From assembly GCA_014764515.1 (NCBI GenBank), contig JACXWD010000028.1:1-39105 (forward strand): a DNA stretch of 39,105 bases. Reading direction: 5' to 3'. The DNA comes from Candidatus Polarisedimenticola svalbardensis. GTDB taxonomy: Bacteria > Acidobacteriota > Polarisedimenticolia > Polarisedimenticolales > Polarisedimenticolaceae. The position numbers and the translations under genes were made by a program. Below, in pieces: positions 1-474 of this stretch. Each line of letters begins with the position of its first letter. Position 1 is the stretch's first letter. Below the pieces are notes generated by a model. The model saw nothing but the letters and a program-made list of their open reading frames with translations. It was not told where the DNA came from and did no database searches.

Positions 1-293
1 AAATCGAATCGAGGAAGTGGGACCAAATTGCTCCAGTAGTATACGGGCCAGGTAGCATGTTTATACCCCTGTGCAGCCTTGCATAGATCAGACAGATCCT
101 AGCGGTGGCGCCTAAGATGCGCTTAGCACAGAGGATAATACTGGGCACAATTTGGTCAATTTGAAATCCGGCTCAGGACAAAACCAGCCAACTCAGGGCA
201 AATTCGCTCACCGAATTAGCACACGGTCCAGCCAATCAAACGGCGTTAAACACCGCACGGCGATCGAAAATCCAATACTGGCGATCAATTTCA
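1..293. other. Non-coding, lower-GC stretch beside the tRNA
   Basis: No believable gene lies here: the open frames are short, carry no recognisable domain and have no ribosome-binding site. The base composition is visibly more AT-rich than the GC-rich coding DNA that follows. It contains scattered inverted repeats, including a perfect one at 201-217 (AATTCG, five-base gap, CGAATT). Together with the tRNA 3'-end copy at 294-319, this looks like the inner edge or residue of DNA inserted beside the tRNA gene; that reading is inference. Confidence 0.5.
21..157. repeat. 137-bp segment with inverted ends (MITE-like or structured RNA?)
   Basis: GACCAAATTG at 21-30 is perfectly inverted as CAATTTGGTC at 148-157, and the similarity continues imperfectly inward (about 21-43 against 135-157). 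Inside are further pairings: CCCCTGTGC (66-74) against GCACAGAGG (126-134, 8 of 9), and a CTAAG/CTTAG hairpin at 112-126. It is non-coding and short, as in a miniature inverted-repeat element, but no target-site duplication is visible at its edges. A folded RNA or chance pairing are alternatives. Confidence 0.25.
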
Positions 294-319
294 TTGGAGC
301 CGACGAGCGGAGTCGAACC
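294..319 (-). repeat. Duplicated tRNA-Thr 3' end (attachment-site-like repeat)
   Basis: These 26 bases are identical to 449-474, which hold the last 25 bases of the tRNA-Thr gene (acceptor 3' strand with CCA and most of the T arm) plus one flanking base. Identity stops abruptly after GTCGAACC, and the copy cannot form a T stem, so it is a fragment and not a second tRNA. Direct duplication of a tRNA 3' end is the normal footprint of site-specific integration by tyrosine recombinases. Here only about 130 bp separates the copies, so the element would have been deleted or would lie beyond the window start. Confidence 0.7.
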
Positions 320-448
320 CGCAAAGCTCGCGGAGCGAGCATCAGATAATGGGGCCGTAGGCCTTCTTCTACGGGACCGGCTCCGCTGGTCAGGCATAAC
401 CACAGGAAACCGCAGAGCTTATACGGTCGGATAAAGCAACTCTGTACC

Positions 449-474
449 TTGGAGCCGACGAGCGGAGTCGAACC
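449..474 (-). repeat. tRNA-side copy of the 26-bp direct repeat
   Basis: This is the functional copy of the repeat also found at 294-319; it forms the 3' end of the tRNA-Thr gene. The interval between the copies (320-448) holds no gene, only hairpins: a 6-bp stem at 326-340 (GCTCGC, GGA loop, GCGAGC) and another at 355-374 (CCGTAG/CTACGG, 8-base loop). One of these might end the tRNA transcript. Confidence 0.7.

Follow-up and report, generated by a model that had tools for sequence, protein, structure and literature searches.

Cis-mobilizable elements (CIMEs) lie at the 3′ ends of tRNA and other genes, and tandem accretion has been described for streptococcal elements (PMC5704250). In tandem accretion, units stripped of integration genes are bounded by att-like repeats and accumulate through successive integrations at one target, as appears to have happened at the tRNA-Thr(CGT) gene described here, where a 155-bp unit has repeats at both ends and no gene inside, although it presumably once carried genes. 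The locus differs from CIMEs in that no ICE or IME relative able to mobilise its units was found here, in that the 155-bp unit is free of cargo, and in that the host belongs to an uncultured Acidobacteriota lineage. The stacking of units is read from strong colinearity with a same-genus genome, across contigs that are not joined. The Dehalococcoides ssrA islands, 16 of 31 of which carry an integration module (PMC3146451), are similar in that several occur in tandem downstream of one RNA gene and each is bounded by 3′-end direct repeats. Those islands target tmRNA, however, and their serine integrase module (dsiB) is known, whereas tRNA-Thr is targeted here and no linked recombinase was found. 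Finally, tDNA islands mapped by Islander have a regenerated intact tRNA gene and a displaced 3′ fragment at their two ends, as this locus does, while the interval here differs in being just 155 bp long and integrase-free (PMC4383910). The tDNA-island traits present are an intact tRNA gene, an identical displaced 3′ fragment and one relative without the insert.

The stretch analysed (the window; 39,105 nucleotides) is the whole of contig C147, from its base 1, of the draft metagenome assembly G000 (180 contigs, 4.86% contamination), which therefore offers no sequence to the left of the window. It was compared with a same-genus genome (G001), in which the locus also lies on a contig numbered C147 (8685 bases), and with further relatives (G002–G005). 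tRNA calls were made with ARAGORN and Rfam, and integrases were sought as PF00589 (tyrosine-type) matches beside the tRNA-Thr copies.

The target, an intact tRNA-Thr(CGT) gene, occupies positions 450–525 of the minus strand (ARAGORN; Rfam tRNA, 73.2 bits) and is identical in G001. Its 3′-terminal 25 bases, the encoded CCA among them, make up 450–474 and, with flanking base 449, form a 26-bp repeat, TTGGAGCCGACGAGCGGAGTCGAACC. The tRNA-proximal, att-like copy (449–474, minus strand) and the distal copy (294–319, minus strand) are exact and direct, with a spacing of 155 bp, and the outer copy lies on the 3′ side of the tRNA gene in the orientation of the inner one, all as an initial sequence-only reading had stated. 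Chance is ruled out for a repeat of this length, the simple expected count (39105^2/2 over 4^26) being ~2e-7. The suggestion that the second copy belongs to an array of degenerate tRNA genes was rejected, as ARAGORN and Rfam detected no second tRNA or pseudo-tRNA at 294–448 and the outer copy has neither a tRNA-like 5′ half nor a cloverleaf. The same reading described the sequence at and beyond the outer copy as non-coding and more AT-rich, which is borne out by the absence of any credible gene in 1–448, and hence in 294–448, and by a GC content of 49% in 1–293, compared with 59% in 294–448 and 62% in 653–39105.

The two ends of the 155-bp unit are distinct. The proximal end, beginning AGGTACAGAGTTGCTT (423–448, minus strand), is common to a unit on contig C63 (6371–6397), with 92% identity over 49 bp, tRNA end counted in. 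AGGTACAGAGTTGCTT directly follows the CCA of a tRNA-Thr 3′ end in both places, the window and one C63 copy, and GGTACAGAGTTGCTT has exact matches at these two places only in G000. The recurrence of AGGTACAGAGTTGCTT after another tRNA-Thr 3′ end indicates that this end of the insert is that of a genuine element. Beyond ~26 bp at this end, the geneless 129-bp interior (320–448) matches no other unit, its similarity to the related repeat modules of C63, C72 and C4 described below being at chance level, and it therefore does not point to the presumably deleted cargo. At the opposite end is the GCTCGCTCCGCGAGC hairpin (GCTCGC-TCC-GCGAGC), 6 nt inside the distal core; a hairpin at that position arises in ~1% of shuffles and several such comparisons were made, so that its meaning as an element feature is suggestive only. 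The interior contains no terminator-like site and no Rfam family, the sole Rfam hit being the tRNA; a Plastid-ycf2 hit, far under the cut-off and antisense to the tRNA, was dismissed. The insert folds as RNA mildly better than shuffles (z −2.15), a signal that was put down to T-arm palindromes, and it was not accepted as an RNA. Phage records gave no match to 280–449, and neither the exact module palindrome nor the junction of the tRNA end with AGGTACAGAGTTG was found in viral contigs.

Comparison with G001 provides a view of the site without the 155 bp. G001 has one copy of the repeat, the distal copy being absent, and its tRNA runs directly into the counterpart of window 175–293 (~77% identity over 145 bp for 175–319, tRNA end counted in), while the sequence on the other side of tRNA-Thr is 85% identical over 1031 bp. 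Since the tRNA in G001 adjoins this counterpart directly, the window has 155 bp extra, which are bounded as expected of a site-specific insertion. A gain in G000 and a loss in G001 by copy-to-copy recombination would give the same picture in these two genomes. The single-copy relative that had been sought thus exists, and the 155-bp arrangement is missing from the relatives, but G001 is not a virgin empty site, as genes of the C63 unit come after its tRNA. It is better termed a site without the 155-bp unit, and may itself carry the next unit, of which 175–293 would be the near end. The remaining contig end (1–174) is non-coding and AT-rich. Positions 141–165 resemble the outer arm of the C72 repeat module (CAAATTGTGCCCAG; local alignment p ~0.001, weaker against other modules, with several comparisons made) and are possibly the decayed distal end of the next unit, a likeness that is suggestive only.

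The 20-base end of tRNA-Thr has five exact copies in G000, two of them in the window and the others on C4, C63 and C72, one per contig. Copies of the tRNA-Thr 3′ half that are not part of a tRNA lie at C63:6290–6370, C63:7379–7429 (at the contig end), C72:15402–15483 and C4:1402–1482. The copies on these three contigs are part of a repeat module, at most ~150 bp long, in which an upstream arm is followed by a tRNA half that extends from the anticodon to CCA and is split by a ~28-bp palindromic insert. Over the first 51 bp of the tRNA-derived part with its insert, the modules are 94–100% identical, while the upstream arm has 69–72% identity among modules and is missing from one C63 copy. The copy at the very end of C63 is an upstream half, and the contig terminates within this repeat, consistent with tandem repeats breaking assemblies. 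On C72, several long coding stretches (L044:1–7193, L076) are repeated along the contig with 66–75% mutual DNA identity.

The gene order of G001 suggests how these contigs are arranged. Outward from tRNA-Thr, the counterpart of 175–293 is followed by a nucleotidyltransferase-like gene and a small gene, which match the C63 cargo (81% over 755 bp). Next, at the syntenic position, comes CCGCTTCGTGATGGGCAGGTCAG (20/23), apparently a decayed remnant of the module, and then another gene. Farther out are a peptidase S9 gene and later genes, which on C4 begin right past the C4 module (79% and 80% identity over 1.9 and 3.6 kb). Because their genes are colinear with the tRNA-Thr locus of G001, in which the C63-matching genes precede the C4-matching genes, C63 and C4 most plausibly lie downstream of the start of the window. 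The neighbour genes of C72 were not found in the relatives, and this contig is thus unplaced. The near ends of the units vary, as AGGTACAG in C63 precedes the same genes that GTGAAATAG precedes in G001. None of the cargo genes tested gave a defence hit in PADLOC.

Taken together, the window most likely opens a tandem array of islands that lack an integrase, an array that appears to have been broken in assembly, and the 155 bp are probably the remnant of a tRNA-Thr(CGT) island stripped of its cargo, the first unit of that fragmented array. The unit is read as internally deleted because a proximal element end and an exact distal repeat are present while the cargo is absent, and the lack of an integrase in the interval, which holds no gene at all, argues for a remnant rather than an intact island. 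The mechanism is proposed to be as follows. An island would have inserted site-specifically at the 3′ end of tRNA-Thr(CGT), presumably through a trans-acting enzyme, probably a tyrosine recombinase, that crossed over inside the ~22–26 bp stretching from the T-loop up to the CCA end. The crossover of this unit is bounded by the 26-bp identity, which runs from the T-loop to one base beyond CCA. Each integration would restore the tRNA and displace the former 3′ end outward as a copy. The cargo would then have been lost via an internal deletion that retained both ends, rather than by precise excision, which leaves one copy of the repeat and not two. The array would run on past the window start, spread over several contigs in the presumed order given above. 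The sequence-only reading had offered a lost element and the near end of another element as alternatives, and the two are partly supported jointly: a stripped element is the best reading of the interval, provided that its loss was an internal deletion, and a further unit at the outer copy is favoured by 175–293, which adjoins the tRNA directly in G001 as a near end would. A more ambitious proposal holds that these units form a small integrase-less cargo family in one Acidobacteriota lineage, for which tRNA-Thr serves as the cassette-loading site, the tRNA-Thr 3′ end and inner palindrome as att, and a trans-acting recombinase as the driver; this is speculative and has a low probability.

Other origins of the 155 bp have to be weighed against an internally deleted island. 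Two islands of the array could have recombined unequally, joining the near end of one to the far end of the other, and the different combinations of near ends with the same genes in C63 and G001 show the kind of reassortment that such exchange would produce. However, no parental pair was found and the interior has no match among the known units, which makes this origin unlikely. It is also improbable that the 155 bp are a miniature element in its complete form, moving as it stands and mobilised in trans via its ends. Both ends of the unit are indeed present, the undecayed, exact repeats suggest recent integration, and the hairpin 6 nt from the core has a parallel in the palindrome at the same position in the C63, C72 and C4 copies, but the interior is single-copy in G000 and absent from the relatives. 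Furthermore, a DNA circle of ~155 bp is stiff and an unlikely substrate for recombination. An assembly artefact, in which the repeat was collapsed or misjoined, would suit a fragmented draft metagenome in which array repeats do break contigs, but it is very unlikely given that the 26-bp repeat is shorter than a usual read and that both outer flanks match G001 at the same locus.

No integrase gene, and no adjoining PF00589 match, was found beside any tRNA-Thr copy. The recombinases of G000 include XerC- and XerD-like proteins, an integron integrase and an integron-type fragment at a contig end, none of them beside the copies, and the start of C75 encodes the C-terminus of a further tyrosine recombinase that is likewise not beside any copy. 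The integron integrase is complete (C139:38418–39380, L075:6419–7381; TIGR02249, 454.8 bits, cut-off 265) and lies on a contig separate from the array, where it is preceded by toxin-antitoxin-like small genes (DUF4160; HTH protein). An integron-like cassette array that uses tRNA-Thr as its insertion site and is driven by this integrase is hardly credible: the units are cassette-like with a palindrome in their ends, but no canonical attC-type box pair (RYYYAAC...GTTRRRY, 45–160 bp apart) was found in the window region or the four modules, and the integrase sits on C139 among toxin-antitoxin-like neighbours. A second, truncated integron-type integrase (C139:39661–40141, L075:7662–8141) lies directly downstream of the first and runs off the contig. 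The same region contains a ~45-bp repeat, CCCACCCAAGCCTCCTCC.ACGAGGCA, at L075 4947, 5687 and 6375 (~0.7 kb spacing), which is without canonical attC boxes, and an apparently intergenic 76-bp stretch (L075:2492–2567) that is 84% self-complementary and lies inside a 47-bp inverted repeat (2361–2407 / 2644–2690).

Displaced tRNA-Thr 3′ halves of 45–53 bp are also present in G002 (C113:906–958), G003 (C17:35378–35428 and 39888–39938) and G004 (279401–279445), and in G005 the contig stops exactly at the tRNA-Thr 3′ end. These findings indicate that insertions have recurred at tRNA-Thr(CGT) in the family. The longer halves in G002–G004 suggest elements whose identity block would start at the anticodon loop. 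In G003, successive copies follow after 4.9 and then 4.5 kb. These intervals contain genes for a di-haem cytochrome c peroxidase, an ECF sigma factor, a TPR-repeat kinase and a NosD-like protein; none of the proteins tested was an integrase. The sequences after tRNA-Thr (L040:2533) and after the third copy (L040:11936) in G003 have like starts, TGGTGG...GTTACGCG, a recurring element end. Islands have thus integrated repeatedly at the tRNA-Thr(CGT) hot spot of this little-studied Acidobacteriota family; they carry genes for large secreted proteins, kinases and nucleotidyltransferases and no integrase of their own, and the array accounts for the breaks that draft-genome contigs show here. As a mechanism, the collection of genes by bacteria through stacked islands is already known, while the host lineage is new. 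A second tRNA gene, tRNA-Lys(CTT), is possibly another hot spot in the family, as tyrosine-recombinase matches lie a few hundred bases from it in G001 (C200:2846–3283, L083) and, under the cut-off, in G005 (C66:662–805, L084).
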